Source: Aporhodopirellula aestuarii (GTDB lineage Bacteria > Planctomycetota > Planctomycetia > Pirellulales > Pirellulaceae). From it: a DNA stretch of 64,000 nucleotides. The stretch is from contig NZ_JAMQBK010000060.1 of the NCBI RefSeq assembly GCF_023701485.1, positions 248,001 through 312,000 on the forward strand, read 5' to 3'. Below are positions 1,350 to 9,571 of the stretch, piece after piece. Below the pieces are notes generated by a model. It searched no databases, was not told where the DNA came from, and saw only the letters and a program-made list of their open reading frames with translations. Position numbers and translations under genes: made by a program. The number at the start of each line of letters is the position of its first letter. Positions within the stretch are counted from its first letter, which is position 1.

Positions 1350-2237
1350 ATGCCGGATACAGGAAACACAGTGCTCTCTCTTTCAGATTCAGGTCGCCAA
1401 ACCGTCAACGACCTCGCCTCGCGCTACGGTATCTCACCCGACGGCGTTACGCACATGTTGATTGCCGTTCACAACGGCCGCGGAACCATGGCGCAGTTCA
1501 GTCACCCCGATTTCGGCGGCTCCGGCCAATGGATGCAGGGCGGCATGACCATGGTCAGCGATCTCTTCAACTACAACCTTAAGAACCTCGTCAACAATCT
1601 GTGCAGTGAACTCTCCACGATCCTAGCTAACAATCAGCATGGAACGTTCTCGGGATCGTTCCAATCGCAGAGCCAAAACGGGTTCGATTCCCAAGCTCAA
1701 ACGGCTGGTAATTGTGGTGTCACCAATAGTCTGTTTGTCCCCGATCCGGCGGCACAGTGGTGGCCTCCACACCTTGGTACGCCGAGTGCGACGGGTAACC
1801 AGAATCAGACCAAGTACGCTTACTTTGCCGATTCACATCGCCTGGCGGTGACCACCGGTGGACCTGCATGGGTTTATGACACCCTCGATCATCAGATCGG
1901 TGGTTTCGGTCAACAACAAGGCGGCGGTGCGTCGATCACCTTCACCAGCCAGTACGGCACTGTTGACTTGGCGTCGTTGCCGGTTGTTTGGAAAGACGGT
2001 GCTCCGTTTACCACGGCGCCACAGTCGGTTCCGCAACCGGTGGAACCAACACCGCCTGCGGCGCCGCAAGAGAACTTCAACCCTTCGCCGTCGAACGGTA
2101 ATGGATCCAACGGCATCTCTGACGACGTCTTCGATCGCCTCGAGCGGCTCGCGCAACTGAAAGAGAAAGGGATTCTCACCGAAGACGAATTCAACGCAAC
2201 CAAAAGTGCGTTGTTGTCCAAGATCGGTTCGCGGTAA
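1350..2237 (+). CDS. SHOCT domain-containing protein
   Basis: A 295-residue protein. Its last 35 residues form a SHOCT (short C-terminal) domain: FDRLERLAQLKEKGILTEDEF followed by a short helix ending in LLSKIG. SHOCT modules are thought to mediate oligomerisation. The N-terminal part is conserved-looking, with TVNDLASRYGIS, GGSGQWMQGG, a Ser/Gln-rich stretch (SGSFQSQSQ), a WWPPHLGTPSATG segment and ITFTSQYGTVDL; a Pro-rich linker lies near residues 215-245. From memory, very similar proteins of unknown function occur in many Proteobacteria, which makes transfer possible. No signal peptide or membrane helix is seen. Start ATG at 1350 has a poor ribosome-binding site. The stop lies 3 bp from the stop of the convergent gene. 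Confidence 0.75.
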   Translation: MPDTGNTVLSLSDSGRQTVNDLASRYGISPDGVTHMLIAVHNGRGTMAQFSHPDFGGSGQWMQGGMTMVSDLFNYNLKNLVNNLCSELSTILANNQHGTFSGSFQSQSQNGFDSQAQTAGNCGVTNSLFVPDPAAQWWPPHLGTPSATGNQNQTKYAYFADSHRLAVTTGGPAWVYDTLDHQIGGFGQQQGGGASITFTSQYGTVDLASLPVVWKDGAPFTTAPQSVPQPVEPTPPAAPQENFNPSPSNGNGSNGISDDVFDRLERLAQLKEKGILTEDEFNATKSALLSKIGSR

Positions 2238-2245
2238 CGTTACCG
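2232..2245. repeat. Perfect 14-bp palindrome containing both convergent stop codons
   Basis: CGGTAACGTTACCG reads the same on both strands. The plus-strand TAA of the SHOCT gene (2235-2237) and the minus-strand TAA of the giant envelope gene (2240-2242) are its two halves. There is no room for a conventional terminator between the genes. Confidence 0.7.
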
Positions 2246-5200
2246 GTTGCTGGATGTCATTGCCGGACGCATTCCGGTACTCAGGCTTTCGACCTTGGAC
2301 GAAACCAACTCAAACGGCTTTAACCGCAACGTCATGTTGATGATCGCGAGCGTGACAGGACGCCCGGTCAAAGGGGTTTGTTGAAATCGAGCGGGACGCC
2401 CCGGAGTTCCCTCGATGGTGACCAAATCTTTAGCGACCGCGTATCCACAGCGGTCTGCTGTCGCTTCTGATAGTCCACGGTCGGTGCGGCTGCGAAACAC
2501 GATTCCGCCGGATGCTTCAATCTCGAACGCCGGACTCGATCCGCCGGTATCCGCGGAGAATCGAGATTGTTGCACGGCTGCCGAGGGATCGATCGCGAGG
2601 CGAATTTGATCGCAATCGAGCGTCAACTCATCCTCGGATAGCAAGTTCATGTCGGTCGCATCGAATCGTGAATCGAAGTCTTCGACGATCTTGCGCCCGA
2701 TCCGGATTCCGCGCCGGAACGTGAGCGATTTTGCCATGAGGTCGCCTTGCATGCCGTCTTGGAAAACGAGATGGACGCCCGTGATGTAGGTTTCTGGCGG
2801 CGAGTTTCCGGCTCCTTGGTTTTGCCGGTCAAACGCGCCCTGCTGGTCTTCGATCATGCCTTCAAAGTACACCGATGCGTCGGCCCCGTTGTCGGCAATG
2901 CCTCGTGTCTTGATTGCGGTCTTGTCGGCTTCATCGGATTGTTTGGCAGTCGTGCGGATCCACCCTCGATACGAACCCGCCCCCGGCGCATAAACCTGTC
3001 CCGCTAGGGGCGATGCAACTTGGCGCGATTGATTCATCGGGTAAGTCGTCAACGAGGCTGCCGTTCCATTCTCGGTCGTAGCGCCTGGTATCCACGTCAG
3101 TTCCGACAACAACATTTCGTGACGTGACTCACGGCGGCCATCGGCGGCGAATCGGTCGACAAAGATTTCGACGGGCTGTTGTGAGGTTTGTTTGAGTGAA
3201 ATCTGTGCGAGTTGAGTTGCTTGAAACGTCGCCGGCGTACGGAGATCAACGGGGGTTTCGAGCGTGAACGAAAGCTTGTCACCCTGCATCCTTAAATCGC
3301 TCGGTTCACGCCCTTGAGCAATCGCCGCCTCCAATACGACTCCACCGCTGAGCGTCGCGACGCGTCCGTCAAACGTCATCGAGCCACCAAACCGCCCACG
3401 AGGACTCTGTGTCCAACGCATTGCCTTTGCCGGATCACGACTCGATGCCACGCCGCCGAGTGCAGGAAGGAACGCACTCGGAACAACAAATTCTCCGGCC
3501 GAAGGAATCCAGATGTAATTGTCATCGGGACGTACTTGGATTTCAGGGCCGATAAAATAACCGTCACCCAGCTCCAAACGTGCCGGTGTTTGAGACTGGC
3601 TGCCCAATTGCAGAACGTCGCCTCCACCATCGCCGTCACGCAGTCGCAAATGATCGCCGGTCATCACAGCGAGCATGGTTTGCGTTGGCTGATCCGTTTC
3701 TGGATTCGAATTCGCACTCGTCTTCTGGCGTAGCGTTAGTGAATGCGTGACCTCCACGTTCCCGACAACGCTCAAATCGGTCGCGGTCAACTCTCCATCA
3801 CCGAACGTCAGTTTGGCCGTGACCTGATCACCTCGAATGGTCGCCGGTGGCTTTGCCGGCTTCGCAACCCCATTTGCCGCAGCGACGTTCCTGCCATTAT
3901 TCAGCGTTCCCGCATCAGGCTGGCTGACCCATTGTCGCAATGACGATCCGTCTCGCGGCACTACGGCATTTTTCGCAGCAGGTGCTGCCTGTTCAAAGAA
4001 CAAATTCATCTGAGGCGTGCTAGCTTGCAGCGTACTGGAATTCACACGCACGTTGCCGATCGCGGAGAAGCGATCCGGAAACCAACTGTGATCGAGCGAC
4101 GCATCATCGGTTCCCGAGGCGTTGTTGGCGGTGTGGGCACGGGAGTTTGGAGAGCGTTGCACGACCGGTTTAAGGACACCCTCGATACGATCAGTTTGGA
4201 ACGTACCGCCATCCGCCAGTAATGAACGTATATCGCCGTCGCACCACACACCAAATCTTACATTCATCGCATCCGCGGTGGCGGTCTCCAATGGAGACAC
4301 ACGCAGACTGTCACGCCACGAGAAAGATTTGAAAACGGAATCGATCGAGCTGTAATCGACCCGTCCTTTGCCGTCGACTTCGACGGTACCGAGTTGTTGC
4401 GGATGCTTGGGATCAAAACGGTAGACGATTCGAGATAACGTCGCTTGCATCTCGCCCCGTCGAAGTCGAACAAATTCAGTGAGTCGTGGGTCGCCACCAA
4501 CCGACGTTGCGAGCGGCATGGCACCGACGGGAGACGGACCGGCGATCAACCAACCTTCCAGTGGGTCAAACAACACTTGTCCAGCCGTCAGGTCGAATTG
4601 CTGCGACCGTACAGACAATCGAACCGGCCGTCCAGTCGCTTCGATCCGATCGATCCAATCGATGGCGGTCTTGCGAATGCGATCCGAGTTAAGCGGATCT
4701 CGCAGTGTCATGCGAAGTGAGTCGCACTCAAACTGATCAAACAAGGATGGGTCCGAATTCCCGGCCGATCGTGTGTCGGTCGTCGCCTGATGTACGAGTC
4801 GCACGTTGCGATCGAGCAGCAATTGATCCATTGCAAAATCGTATTCAATCCGACCATCGCAATGGACTTGCACCATTCCCCGATTGTCGTCGTCTGGTGA
4901 CCAAGCGTCTTGTGGCTTTCCGAGCGGCAGCGTCAACTCGCGTAGATAAATCAACTCCATCCGGTCGAGAGAGCGGGCCAAGTTGGCTTGTGAAGTGGCT
5001 GTCCCAGTGGATGCTGCCAAGTGAAGGGTCAAGTCTCGCCCGACCATGACTGCGCGACCGACGTGCATTTCAATCGCTTCGGTCGTCCAGATTTTTCTGC
5101 GGTCGATACCGACGTTGGCGGTGCGAATGTCGAGGGTTTGGTCGTCGCTGAGTTCGGTCTGCGTAGGACGCACGTGATAAGCCGAATCAGCCTCCGGATC

Positions 5201-5704
5201 GTTGTTTCCAGTTGTTTGCGTGGGCTGATGGGAAGCGACGCGTTGAATATGGACGTCGCCGAGCAATTGCCCGCGTTGGATCGTCGGGGCCACGCCGCTC
5301 ATGACGTCGAGTGCGGCGCTGAATTCAATCACCGCGCCTTCGGCTGCCTCGATCAGGATCGGTTCGCGTGAATCGTCCGCCGACAACCCGCGTCCGATGA
5401 CCATCGTGATCGGCCACAACCGCCATTTCTTGCCGCCGTCACGATCGTCTTTGTTCTGTTCCCAATTTTGAAACAACAGCATGCCGTCTTGTGTCTTCAA
5501 CCGGATCGCACGACCGCGTTGCCAGGCATCTTCCGGGTACAAGTCGGCCAGGGATTCATCGTTGTCGCTGAGAACGCGAACTGCGATCGGCGCGTGCTCG
5601 ATCTCAGGCGGCGTGAGCCACTTCGCTGCGGTCACTTGATAACCGCCCATCGCAACGAGCACTAAGCTCAATCCGATGATATAGTCGCGAAACGAGCCCG
5701 CCAT
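2240..5704 (-). CDS. Giant LptC/LptA (OstA)-like periplasmic protein
   Basis: A 1154-residue protein with one N-terminal membrane segment (about residues 8-26, rich in I/L/V/A/G) and no other hydrophobic helix, so it is probably anchored in the inner membrane with a long periplasmic part. The body is beta-rich and repeats segments in the style of OstA/LptA: GNVRVNSSTLQASTPQMNL, VVGNVEVTHSL, FDGRVATLSGGVVLEAA and, near the C-terminus, ATADRCGYAVAKDLVTIEG. LptA and LptC are each under about 200 residues, so this would be several jellyroll units in one chain. Its ATG directly abuts the kdsC stop (TGAATG), and kdsD lies just upstream; in Proteobacteria lptC and lptA follow kdsD-kdsC. A role in lipopolysaccharide transit is inferred from context and repeat style, not proven. 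An AsmA-like or purely structural role is the alternative. Confidence 0.6.
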   Translation of the reverse strand: MAGSFRDYIIGLSLVLVAMGGYQVTAAKWLTPPEIEHAPIAVRVLSDNDESLADLYPEDAWQRGRAIRLKTQDGMLLFQNWEQNKDDRDGGKKWRLWPITMVIGRGLSADDSREPILIEAAEGAVIEFSAALDVMSGVAPTIQRGQLLGDVHIQRVASHQPTQTTGNNDPEADSAYHVRPTQTELSDDQTLDIRTANVGIDRRKIWTTEAIEMHVGRAVMVGRDLTLHLAASTGTATSQANLARSLDRMELIYLRELTLPLGKPQDAWSPDDDNRGMVQVHCDGRIEYDFAMDQLLLDRNVRLVHQATTDTRSAGNSDPSLFDQFECDSLRMTLRDPLNSDRIRKTAIDWIDRIEATGRPVRLSVRSQQFDLTAGQVLFDPLEGWLIAGPSPVGAMPLATSVGGDPRLTEFVRLRRGEMQATLSRIVYRFDPKHPQQLGTVEVDGKGRVDYSSIDSVFKSFSWRDSLRVSPLETATADAMNVRFGVWCDGDIRSLLADGGTFQTDRIEGVLKPVVQRSPNSRAHTANNASGTDDASLDHSWFPDRFSAIGNVRVNSSTLQASTPQMNLFFEQAAPAAKNAVVPRDGSSLRQWVSQPDAGTLNNGRNVAAANGVAKPAKPPATIRGDQVTAKLTFGDGELTATDLSVVGNVEVTHSLTLRQKTSANSNPETDQPTQTMLAVMTGDHLRLRDGDGGGDVLQLGSQSQTPARLELGDGYFIGPEIQVRPDDNYIWIPSAGEFVVPSAFLPALGGVASSRDPAKAMRWTQSPRGRFGGSMTFDGRVATLSGGVVLEAAIAQGREPSDLRMQGDKLSFTLETPVDLRTPATFQATQLAQISLKQTSQQPVEIFVDRFAADGRRESRHEMLLSELTWIPGATTENGTAASLTTYPMNQSRQVASPLAGQVYAPGAGSYRGWIRTTAKQSDEADKTAIKTRGIADNGADASVYFEGMIEDQQGAFDRQNQGAGNSPPETYITGVHLVFQDGMQGDLMAKSLTFRRGIRIGRKIVEDFDSRFDATDMNLLSEDELTLDCDQIRLAIDPSAAVQQSRFSADTGGSSPAFEIEASGGIVFRSRTDRGLSEATADRCGYAVAKDLVTIEGTPGRPARFQQTPLTGRPVTLAIINMTLRLKPFELVSSKVESLSTGMRPAMTSSNR

Positions 5705-6268
5705 TCAATCCTCTTTCGTCAGATGTTCATTCCAACGATCGCCGCCACGCAATAGTCGTTCGATTAACTCACGAATCACACCTTGGCCTCCGTGTGCGCG
5801 CATGGTCCAGTGAGCAAACTCGCGGGCATCCGTCGCGGCGTCGTCCGGCGCCGCGGCCAACGCCACCTGCCGCATCACACAGATGTCGGGCAAGTCATCG
5901 CCGATGTAACAGACCTGCTGAGGCTTGACGCCCATCGATTTCATCATCGCTTGAGCGGCCAACCATTTATCGCTGGCCCCTTGCGATACATGCTCAATTC
6001 CGAGTTCAGCGGCGCGATGGGCGACCAACGGGCTCGTGCGAGCGGTGATGATGCCAAAGTGAAAACCGCTTTTCATCCACAATTTAATTCCCAGACCGTC
6101 ACGAACATGGAACGATTTGGTTTCGCGGCAATCGCCGTTTTTTTCGACGCTATAAGTGATCTTGCCGTCGGTGAGCACTCCATCGACATCGGTCAAAATG
6201 CATTGAATATCTGCGGCAATCTCGGCATCGCTGCGTAGCCGACTCTGAATAGGAACGTGCGACGTCAC
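5705..6268 (-). CDS. kdsC: 3-deoxy-D-manno-octulosonate 8-phosphate phosphatase, HAD family
   Basis: A 187-residue KdsC-type HAD phosphatase that would remove phosphate from Kdo-8-phosphate in Kdo synthesis for the lipopolysaccharide core. The nucleophile motif DVDGVLTDG lies at residues 27-35 (Asp27, Asp29). Motif II is IITARTS near 73-79, the conserved Lys is 101, and the metal-binding motif GDDLPD is at 123-128. As usual for KdsC there is no cap domain, and the length fits the family. The start overlaps the stop of kdsD by 4 bases (ATGA), and its stop abuts the start of the giant LptA-like protein, so the three are almost certainly one transcript. The YrbI family also includes KDN-9-P and N-acylneuraminate-9-P phosphatases; the adjacent kdsD favours Kdo. 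Confidence 0.9.
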   Translation of the reverse strand: MTSHVPIQSRLRSDAEIAADIQCILTDVDGVLTDGKITYSVEKNGDCRETKSFHVRDGLGIKLWMKSGFHFGIITARTSPLVAHRAAELGIEHVSQGASDKWLAAQAMMKSMGVKPQQVCYIGDDLPDICVMRQVALAAAPDDAATDAREFAHWTMRAHGGQGVIRELIERLLRGGDRWNEHLTKED

Positions 6269-7398
6269 GATGATTGTTTTCCGGTGGTGGGAGGAATCAA
6301 AGGGAGCACCGTCGCGGTTGAGTCACAGGTCGAGATATCACCGGCCGTGATCAGGTCGGTGATGTCGATCATTCCGATCGGGTGGCCATCTTCATGGATC
6401 ACCGGCAATTCGCTGATGTGTCGCTGCGACAATACGGTAACCGCCTTTGCCAGCGGGGTGCCGCTGCGAATCGTGACCGGCGTCCGAGTCATTACTTCTT
6501 TGATCGGCTGATCGAGGCTGTTTTCTTGGCGACGTTGTAATAGTTTGACGAGATCGCTGTCGGTGAAAATTCCGGTTAGTTTTTGATCGGAATCGACCAG
6601 CATCACGGCCCCGCTTCGTCGATCGGGCGTTTTGCCCGCGATCGCATCCCGCACCGGTAACGTCTCCGATGCGATTCGGCATTCGTGAAGCCCACGCATC
6701 ACGTCGTCCACATTGGCCAGCTTGCGTCCTAAGGCGCCCCCGGGATGGAACCGGGCGAAATCCTGTGGACCAAATCCTCGCAGTTGTGAAGCGAGCATGG
6801 CGATCGCGTCGCCTATGGCGAGCATTACCGATGTGCTTGTCGTCGGTGCCAGCCCGTTGGGGCAGGCTTCGCGGTGACGCCCCATAGGCACGACGAGGTC
6901 CGCCATCTCGGCCAACGGATTGGCGTCGTCGGCTGTGATCGCGATCAAACAGTTCGCTTGAGTCTTGAGGTGTTCGCAAACCCGGACGACCTCTTCGCTG
7001 CGGCCCGAGTTCGAAAAAGCGATGACGATGTCGGTGCCCTGAACCCGGCCCAAATCGCCGTGAATCGCTTCGCTCGGGTGCAGAAAATGCGATGGCGAAC
7101 CGGTACTGGCCAGCGTCGCGACAATTTTTTGGGCGATCCATCCTGCTTTGCCCACGCCGGTCAAAACGACGGACCCGGTACATGCCGCGATCCGTGTGGC
7201 GGCTTCCACGGCGGCGGTCGAGGCAACGGATTCCGCGGCCCGAATCGCGTCCGCCTCGGCAAACATCGTGTCTCGGATGATCCGGACACGCTCGACTTGA
7301 GAGAGCGATTTTGCGGAATTATGTGAGCCGGAGACGCGATCAACGGCGAAACTGCCGTCGTCACGCGACGCAATTGGTTGAGGCGACACGGGGAGCAT
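6265..7398 (-). CDS. kdsD: D-arabinose 5-phosphate isomerase (SIS plus two CBS domains)
   Basis: It converts ribulose 5-phosphate to arabinose 5-phosphate, the first committed step toward Kdo. From the ATG chosen at 7398 it has 377 residues: a SIS domain at about 70-205 with VVLTGVGKAG (77-86), HPSEAIHGDLG (107-117) and AFSNSGRSEEV (127-137), then two CBS domains at about 255-375. Reading is open back to 7542, but those extra residues would overlap the upstream sulfatase and do not resemble KdsD. Even from 7398 the N-terminus is about 40 residues longer than Escherichia coli KdsD; an ATG at about residue 45 is an alternative. Its stop overlaps the kdsC start by 4 bases. Family and context make the call firm; exact start less so. 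Confidence 0.88.
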   Translation of the reverse strand: MLPVSPQPIASRDDGSFAVDRVSGSHNSAKSLSQVERVRIIRDTMFAEADAIRAAESVASTAAVEAATRIAACTGSVVLTGVGKAGWIAQKIVATLASTGSPSHFLHPSEAIHGDLGRVQGTDIVIAFSNSGRSEEVVRVCEHLKTQANCLIAITADDANPLAEMADLVVPMGRHREACPNGLAPTTSTSVMLAIGDAIAMLASQLRGFGPQDFARFHPGGALGRKLANVDDVMRGLHECRIASETLPVRDAIAGKTPDRRSGAVMLVDSDQKLTGIFTDSDLVKLLQRRQENSLDQPIKEVMTRTPVTIRSGTPLAKAVTVLSQRHISELPVIHEDGHPIGMIDITDLITAGDISTCDSTATVLPLIPPTTGKQSS

Positions 7399-7501
7399 CC
7401 ATGCAAAACGTGCGTATTTTGGCTTCGCAGACGGGGCGAAGAGAACCGATCCCAAGGCTACCCAAAGGGCTCCTGCGGTCGCAAGACGAACCGAACTCGC
7501 A

Positions 7502-9292
7502 TCAACGCCGCATTCCAGGCAAAACGAAGCTTTTCTCAGCATACTCCTGCCACATCGCTGCGAGTTTTTCCACGATTTCAGGTTTCTCCTGACTCAGATC
7601 GTTCTGCTCGCTGCGGTCACGGGAGATGTCGTACAGTTCCCAGGCACCCTTGGGGCCTTTGGCGACGAGTTTGTAGTCACCTGCCCTAACGGCTCGGTTT
7701 CCCTCGTGTTCCCAGTAAATCGCCTCACGTTCTATCGGCTGACCGTCGAAGAGTGGCCGCAGACTTCGACCCTCCATCGGGTGGATTTTGTTGCCGCCAT
7801 GAGAGGTCGCCGGATATTCCGCACCCGATACATCGACGGCCGTGGTCATCAGGTCGATCAGGTGTCCCGGAGTGGATTCGATCTCGCCGTGGCGGGAAAT
7901 GCCGAGCGGCCAATGGGCAATCAAGGGGGTGGAAATGCCTCCCTCGTGTACCCAGTGCTTGTATTCGCGAAAAGGTGTGTTCGATACCGTCGCCCAGCCG
8001 CGCCCGTAGGCGACATAGGTATCTGCCGGCCCCGCCATCGCGTTGTGCCCATTCCGTACCGGAAAACCGTCGCGGGTTTGTTTGGGAACCATGTCCATTT
8101 GCAAATGATCAGCCGGCAGCGGTGTCAAAGTGGGCCCATTCGCTCGTGGCCCGTCCTTGCCATTGCGACCAAAATTCTCCGCACACCCGCCGTTATCTTG
8201 CAAGAAACAAATCAGCGTGTTGTCGAACTGGCCGGTCGATTTGAGCGACTGCACGATTTTTCCAATGCCTTGATCCATCGCATCGATCATCGCCGCATAG
8301 ACCTCCATGTTGCGTTTGTCCCAATCCCAATGGTTCTTCACCTTCCAATCGTCTGGGATTGGCCAATTCACGGTGCTCTCCGCTTGGATCACTCCGAGAT
8401 CGAGCATCCGTTGATAGCGGGAGTCTCGAATCGCATCGTATCCCGCGTCGTATCGACCCTCGTACTTCGCGATGTCACGTTCTCGCGCGTGCATCGGCCA
8501 GTGGGCTGCCGTGTAAGCGACGTAGAGAAAGAACGGTTTGTCCGCCGACTGTTCGTGATGTTCCTGAATGAAGCGGGTTGCGTGATCGGTAATCGCGTCG
8601 GTGTAATAGAACTCGCCGTCGACCTGTGACTCGAGCGGATACTCCGGATCCGCAGCAGGCGAAATTCGTGTGTTGTCACGAGTCAGTGAGTTCGGATCCC
8701 AAAAGCTACCCGCGCCATGAATGGTCCCATAGAAACGATCGAAACCACGCTGTCGTGGCCAATTCGCTTTGTCCGCATCGGGGGCCTTGTTATTAAAAGG
8801 GGTCACGTGCCATTTGCCGGAAATGTAAGTTCGGTACCCGGCCGGACGCAGCACCTCGGCAATCGTGACGCAGTGACGATTGAGTTGTCCGCGATAACCC
8901 TCATGCCCCCGATCCTCCATCATATGGCCCACGCCCGCTTGATGCGGATACAAACCCGTCAACAAACTCGCCCGCGTCGGACAACATCGTGCCGTGTTAT
9001 AAAACTGCGTGAACCGCAACCCGTTTTCCGCCAACGAGTCCAAAACCGGCGTCTCAATCTCGCTACCGTAACACCCGATGTCCGAGAAACCCATGTCGTC
9101 AGACAAGATGTAGATGATGTTGGGCCGTTGGATTGATTCGGCTTGAGCGTGTATCGCGATCAGGAATAGTGAACACGTGACGACACCTGACGCTAAAACG
9201 AATCGTTTGAATCGTGGCAGAAATCGATCACAAGCGTTTGTGAGGCGAACTGTCGATTTCGCACGCAACAAATTTGCGGATAACGGACGCAT
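7502..9292 (-). CDS. Secreted arylsulfatase, formylglycine type
   Basis: An alkaline-phosphatase-superfamily sulfatase. It begins the catalytic domain with RPNIIYILSDDMGF (metal-binding Asp pair). The formylglycine motif is CCPTRASLLTG near residue 103, with the second Cys fitting C-x-P-S/T-R after its partner is skipped or the first as C-C-P-T-R; modification by a sulfatase-maturating enzyme is needed. Later blocks include KWHVTPFNNK and a DNGG segment (FLQDNGGCAENFG) that completes the metal site. A hydrophobic stretch ending AIHAQAE is a likely signal peptide, after an unusually long basic leader. I chose ATG 9292 because GGAG lies 6 bases upstream; an in-frame ATG at 9334 would add 14 residues. 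It precedes the kdsD unit on the same strand by about 100 bp but its function is separate: desulfation of marine polysaccharides. Confidence 0.92.
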   Translation of the reverse strand: MRPLSANLLRAKSTVRLTNACDRFLPRFKRFVLASGVVTCSLFLIAIHAQAESIQRPNIIYILSDDMGFSDIGCYGSEIETPVLDSLAENGLRFTQFYNTARCCPTRASLLTGLYPHQAGVGHMMEDRGHEGYRGQLNRHCVTIAEVLRPAGYRTYISGKWHVTPFNNKAPDADKANWPRQRGFDRFYGTIHGAGSFWDPNSLTRDNTRISPAADPEYPLESQVDGEFYYTDAITDHATRFIQEHHEQSADKPFFLYVAYTAAHWPMHARERDIAKYEGRYDAGYDAIRDSRYQRMLDLGVIQAESTVNWPIPDDWKVKNHWDWDKRNMEVYAAMIDAMDQGIGKIVQSLKSTGQFDNTLICFLQDNGGCAENFGRNGKDGPRANGPTLTPLPADHLQMDMVPKQTRDGFPVRNGHNAMAGPADTYVAYGRGWATVSNTPFREYKHWVHEGGISTPLIAHWPLGISRHGEIESTPGHLIDLMTTAVDVSGAEYPATSHGGNKIHPMEGRSLRPLFDGQPIEREAIYWEHEGNRAVRAGDYKLVAKGPKGAWELYDISRDRSEQNDLSQEKPEIVEKLAAMWQEYAEKSFVLPGMRR

Positions 9293-9571
9293 CGAGGACT
9301 CCAGTCGTGGATAAGGGCGGTGATACAGTTGCATGCCTGCCGCGACAGTATAGGTGCTCGGCGCCGTGGGAATGCCTCACTGAATCGGAAAAAAGGAAGC
9401 TACCTATGCAAGCCAGATACAACTGTGTTCGCGCCGCAATTGTGCGGTTGATCTTGATTCAGAAAAAATGAGATGGATCACGAACCGTTTAATAGGGTGT
9501 CGCGTACGGCGTGCTTGAGTCTTTGGTCGGACCCGCACCCCTTTCGTATTTGTCTCCCTGTTGGGTGATTT

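Follow-up and report, generated by a model that had tools for sequence, protein, structure and literature searches.

In Escherichia coli, the genes that supply the bridge for lipopolysaccharide (LPS) transport follow two kds genes in the order kdsD-kdsC-lptC-lptA-lptB. LptC (YrbK; PF06835, TIGR04409) is a stand-alone protein, of 191 residues in E. coli, with one N-terminal helix followed by a jellyroll, and LptA (YhbN/OstA; PF03968, TIGR03002) is a separate soluble periplasmic protein with a jellyroll like that of the LptD N-terminal domain. TamB/AsmA-like lipid bridges consist of one chain that forms an inner-membrane-anchored beta groove. The locus described here lies in a stretch of 64,000 nucleotides (the window; positions 248,001 to 312,000 of contig NZ_JAMQBK010000060.1) of the planctomycete Aporhodopirellula aestuarii, whose genome of 9.07 Mb is assembled in 165 contigs. 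At nt 2240-5704 on the minus strand, an open reading frame (ORF) with an ATG start encoded a protein of 1154 amino acids, hereafter the giant, which occupied the place of lptC-lptA behind kdsD and kdsC. The giant is very probably a single-chain LPS bridge, in which an LptC and several LptA units are joined behind one N-terminal inner-membrane helix, that is, a proposed membrane-anchored LptC-LptA(n) fusion. It resembles LptC in its position after kdsC, its single N-terminal helix and its first jellyroll, whereas LptC stands alone and the giant carries about 890 more residues, largely LptA-like units; these share the jellyroll of LptA and the LptD N-domain in the middle and C-terminal parts but, unlike LptA, form one chain with the LptC unit and with each other.

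The kdsC gene (nt 5705-6268, minus strand, GTG start) encoded a Kdo-8-phosphate phosphatase (TIGR01670, 135 bits; cut-off 107), and kdsD (nt 6265-7542, minus strand) an arabinose-5-phosphate isomerase (TIGR00393, 261 bits; cut-off 204). The longest kdsD ORF in the window had 425 amino acids, but the start is probably at nt 7398, since the resulting KdsD of 377 residues equals the ORF length in the orthologues of loci L031 and L032. The three genes were tightly packed, as the preliminary description of this stretch had stated: kdsC and the giant gene abutted at TGAATG, and kdsD and kdsC overlapped by four bases, which read GTGA and not ATGA as given there.

The structure model of the giant contained one N-terminal helix followed by 61 beta strands. 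The helix, at residues 3-30 (nt 5615-5698, minus strand as for all parts of the giant), probably serves as inner-membrane anchor as in LptC, and a hydrophobic N-terminal stretch was visible by eye in 36 relatives, in line with the single membrane helix noted in the preliminary description. The first jellyroll (residues 55-265, nt 4910-5542) was LptC-like and superposed on LptC at 2.5 Å over 122 residues of a 125-residue chain. It was followed by an LptA-like unit (residues 266-445, nt 4370-4909), an LptA-like stretch that is the weakest unit and was assigned by hhalign to residues 266-445 (residues 446-620, nt 3845-4369), one or more LptA/LptD-N-like units (residues 621-905, nt 2990-3844), and a C-terminal LptA-like unit (residues 968-1148, nt 2261-2803), the proposed LptD-facing end. 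The predicted fold was that of repeated Lpt-type jellyrolls, LptC-like at the membrane end and LptA-like after it, which agrees with the chain of jellyrolls expected earlier, and in a structure search with the middle part of the giant the 16 best matches were all Lpt proteins. LptA has 16 strands and stacks into fibres at 4.8 Å per strand in two sheets. The 61 strands of the model would correspond to about four LptA-sized units and, if stacked like LptA fibres, to a chain of roughly 15 nm before the LptD N-domain, which is an estimate and not a measurement because the overall shape of the model is uncertain.

Internal repeats were examined with hhalign between subprofiles of the giant alignment, with 40 column shuffles and reversed profiles as controls. 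Residues 266-445 aligned with residues 968-1148 (95% over 118 columns), 621-830 (89% over 78 columns) and 446-620 (70% over 58 columns), and lower values were obtained for 446-620 with 621-830 (51%) and for 621-830 with 968-1148 (47%). Outside the giant, residues 55-265 aligned with a profile built from eleven LptC domains of deep planctomycetes (57% over 119 columns), and residues 968-1148 with the single sequence of E. coli LptA (60% over 51 columns). None of the 40 shuffles scored as high in any of these comparisons, and reversed profiles scored low; among the pairs of internal repeat units, five of six scored above all 40 column-shuffled controls. Among 37 aligned giants, PF03968 (LptA/LptD N-domain) was matched by 25 and PF06835 (LptC) by three at E <= 1, and TIGR03002 (LptA) by 20 and TIGR04409 (LptC) by ten at E <= 0.1; the TIGR04409 match whose place is known, in one orthologue, was at residues 261-308 and not N-terminal. 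When nine giants were scanned singly, seven exceeded the curated PF03968 cut-off, one stayed under it and one had no match; of those seven, two had their best stretch at residues 301-490 and five had it close to the C-terminus.

Conservation was assessed in an order-level sample of 60 genomes, source genome included, and in a phylum-wide sample of 294 planctomycete genomes. By a plain protein search, 45 of the 60 genomes had the giant, the source genome among them. The nearest named relatives were those of Rhodopirellula rubra (79% identity in the best segment) and R. sallentina (74%), and most members of the order were about 20% identical to the window giant. In loci L031-L066, from 36 genomes, kdsC lay upstream on the same strand in all 36 and kdsD in 31, and kdsC was likewise upstream in 13 of 13 own-genus loci, the window included (four of these genomes are also counted as L031-L034). 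For genomes without a hit in that search, eleven frames were fetched, ten of them via PF03968 and one (G052) via the 37-member family profile; nine were giants beside kdsC and two (L211, L221) were not. The nine additional giants all had kdsC upstream, and eight had kdsD too, which brings the total to 54 of 60 genomes with a giant and kdsC upstream in 54 of 54; conservation of the order kdsD-kdsC-giant was a check proposed in the preliminary description. Gaps between the ORFs at these loci ranged from overlap to about 0.6 kb. In the phylum-wide sample, 70 of 294 genomes matched the 37-member giant profile at E <= 0.001, and 20 of these loci were examined. In ten of ten loci (L158-L167) of another family of the same class, f21, probably the Planctomycetales, kdsD was followed by a giant of 964-1035 residues; no kdsC was found in the fetched stretch in any of the ten, the rest of these genomes not having been searched for it. 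Of ten more distant loci, six had kdsD and/or kdsC nearby.

LptB, LptF/LptG and LptD, whose presence the preliminary description had proposed to check, were all found in the source genome. One lptB match over the cut-off was present in each of 13 genomes, that of the source genome being at C99:32504-33205 (324 bits; cut-off 240); in genome G038, lptB and the giant shared a contig, about 11 kb apart. In the source genome and in G038, lptB adjoined large genes that resemble, by sequence style, LepB-like signal peptidase genes (L107:8373-11402, L111:15984-20000). LptF/LptG family members were present in 20 of 20 genomes; the source genome had three such frames (C109, C88, C155), one more than an LptF/LptG pair, and one of them shared a contig with lptD (C155:10685-14128). 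PF04453 matched no LptD in 19 of 20 genomes, but absence by this profile means little here because a protein query, the one LptD that PF04453 did find, detected LptD in 60 of 60 genomes; loss of LptD was accordingly rejected. At L113:5308-9439, lptD adjoined a small gene that resembles, by sequence style, a diacylglycerol kinase gene.

No stand-alone lptC was detected by PF06835 in 20 genomes, the source genome included, and OstA_2 (PF13100) had no match over the cut-off in the 60 genomes. With PF03968, the sole match in the source genome was LptD itself (E 0.024), with no stand-alone LptA, and no frame shorter than 990 amino acids exceeded the cut-off among the 60 relatives. This outcome is in keeping with the preliminary description, although for LptA the test is weak: in this genus even the known members are barely detected by PF03968, and the profiles could have missed a divergent LptA that stands alone. 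Below the cut-off, PF03968 touched three short frames among the 60 relatives, in G035 (221 amino acids, E 0.008), G019 (248 amino acids, with a stop) and G042 (389 amino acids), and some deep planctomycetes possess short LptA frames (see below). These observations would fit a giant that is a long LptC forming the inner-membrane half only, with an undetected, very divergent stand-alone LptA linking it to LptD; this arrangement is considered unlikely.

Further points weigh against a fused bridge. The window giant itself had no LptA or LptC profile match in Pfam or NCBIfam, although its orthologues share the LptA/LptD-N profile and deep members at the same locus match the LptC profile strongly near the N-terminus, and nine orthologues scanned singly (a second set, partly overlapping the first) were all under the NCBIfam equivalog cut-offs. 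By Foldseek alone, the middle part of the giant had no match at E <= 0.001, and residues 446-620 did not by themselves match any structure strongly. Residues 55-265 showed no repeat with residues 266-445 (3%, one of 40 shuffles being higher) and no hhalign match to the single sequence of E. coli LptC; E. coli LptC and E. coli LptA also showed no repeat with each other (0.1%). The predicted template modelling score of the full-length model was only 0.61, which leaves it uncertain how the units are placed relative to each other, and some loops, residues 923-967 for example, were of low confidence. The giant was not found in six of the 60 order-level genomes (G020, G036, G040, G042, G054, G058), and no kds gene was nearby in four of the ten distant loci, in two of which (L175, L177) the giant frame was also not recovered, nor within the stretch in two of 20 deeper loci (L200, L201). 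A long beta groove with a membrane anchor, in a protein of this size, is typical of TamB/AsmA, and TamB was among the structural matches listed, as might be expected if the giant carried another lipid, such as a phospholipid, in TamB/AsmA fashion and were only distant kin of the Lpt bridge; this is very improbable. Its high divergence within the order might instead point to a scaffold or envelope spacer of Lpt descent that has lost transport, but the linkage to kdsC in every order-level genome with a giant and the lack of any other bridge found beside the LptB/F/G/D set argue against this, and it is just as improbable.

A single-chain bridge anchored in the membrane, as envisaged in the preliminary description, is supported by the fold, the kdsC linkage and the lack of a detected stand-alone lptC or lptA, and homology, fold and context suggest that the giant transports LPS. 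In the proposed mechanism, LptB2FG would extract LPS, the N-terminal helix and the LptC-like jellyroll would dock on LptF/LptG as LptC does, LPS would slide along the groove that the jellyrolls form together, and the LptA-like unit at the C-terminus would hand it to the LptD N-domain. By analogy with the known system, the giant would be inserted in the membrane, have LPS as its cargo and dock at both ends, one copy spanning the periplasm. The preliminary description spoke of a different form of LPS transport; a fused bridge is retained from it, but the wording was too strong, since LptB, LptF/G and LptD are ordinary and the transport principle is thus the same. Most likely, the giant represents a variant of the Lpt bridge that is widespread in Planctomycetota, and not a new principle. 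The number of separate bridge proteins is also changed in E. coli by LptF suppressors that bypass LptC (PMC9972910), in which there are fewer parts by bypass, whereas in the giant there are fewer by fusion.

In deeper lineages the LptC-like part was recognized more readily. PF06835 matched in 72 of the 294 genomes, in 60 of them over the cut-off, and the matching frames had at least 445 amino acids in 65 genomes and fewer than 400 in seven. Twenty deeper loci were chosen from these genomes, and in 17 of them the ORF with the LptC domain came after kdsC or kdsD in the same orientation, the exceptions being L200, L201 and the probable contaminant L202. The LptC match began no later than residue 235 of the ORF also in 17 of 20, the remaining three (L202, L206, L207) having an overlong or wrong frame in this count. 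Eight deeper members scanned with Pfam all exceeded the PF06835 cut-off (E to 6e-19), and five exceeded that of PF03968 with two to four stretches (E to 2e-26); PF03968 was under the cut-off in L195 and L208 and absent in L204. The lengths of ORFs with an LptC domain formed a graded series of 174 (G087), 330 (G076), 559, 575, 635, 657-664 (four), 834, 848, 904, 944, 972, 981, 1112 (two) and 1124 residues. The series leaves out L207, whose ORF of 1704 residues was rejected as an overlong frame running over kdsC and kdsD, and L202 (G077), where kdsD, a separate lptC, an LptA-like ORF of 301 amino acids and lptB lay in a row (L202:1-3470). The latter was rejected as a planctomycete case of separate genes, as it looks, by sequence style, like an alphaproteobacterial contaminant; it is still counted within the 20 deeper loci and the 72 genomes, among those with frames of at least 445 amino acids.

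PF03968 matched in 77 of the 294 genomes, 13 of which had at least one frame shorter than 400 amino acids, some of which may be contig-end cuts or contamination. In G095, such a frame of 175 amino acids was on the same contig as an LptC frame of 246 amino acids, and in G087 one of 190 amino acids was on a contig other than that of its LptC. From these short LptC and PF03968 frames it appears that some deep planctomycete lineages still have lptC and lptA as separate genes. The shortest LptC-like protein, that of G087 (174 amino acids, L189:5007-5531), carried a lipobox-like sequence, LFSGC, close to the N-terminus and could be a lipoprotein rather than a helix-anchored protein. In methanotrophs of the Verrucomicrobiota, LptA and LptC are on adjacent locus tags (PMC10542722). 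The simplest reading is that fusion and lengthening occurred inside Planctomycetota. In a KdsD tree (64 rows, L202 dropped), length classes clustered, with 3 changes versus a shuffled mean of 8.7, but the tree cannot date the fusion because 20 of 61 inner branches were open and some rows were very long. It is conceivable, if rather doubtful, that the length of the one-piece bridge has been tuned by adding jellyroll units, in steps of 174 (a lone LptC), about 330, 560-665, 830-900 and 950-1300 residues, as an adaptation to a periplasm that is wide and variable. That the periplasm of planctomycetes can become greatly enlarged was described in a study that also drew on R. baltica (PMC5394234).

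Around the locus in the window, a sulfatase gene lay upstream on the same strand (nt 7502-9334). A gene for a SHOCT-domain protein (nt 1350-2237, plus strand) was convergent with the giant gene, with two bases between their ends; in R. rubra and R. sallentina, too, an ORF resembling the SHOCT gene adjoined the giant.

LptD is known in planctomycetes (PMC3422733). A survey of 903 genomes named Planctomycetes among those phyla in which the Lpt system is largely reduced and, for the 85 genomes whose synteny it studied, reported clusters of lpt genes from Proteobacteria only (PMC8871954). An essential-gene study of Planctopirus limnophila found lipid A genes to be essential, and "Lpt" is not mentioned in its text, supplements aside (PMC10632474). 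Among the matches listed in the open literature no fused LptC-LptA bridge was reported; since subscription papers and preprints lie outside that scope, one has possibly been reported. For planctomycetes, a phylum with a long-disputed outer membrane, the giant offers a candidate for the LptC/LptA portion of LPS export, and the apparent lack of this bridge in them would be explained by the fusion of LptC and LptA. Where profile-based surveys have scored lptA and lptC as missing from such phyla, their counts would have to be revised. The family makes it testable whether an LPS bridge must assemble from exchangeable pieces or whether a covalent one can work, and it offers a graded natural series of bridge lengths that can be compared with periplasm width. 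If bridge length is indeed tuned, these bacteria would possess a bridge that needs no assembly step and that sets the distance between inner and outer membrane for LPS exchange.

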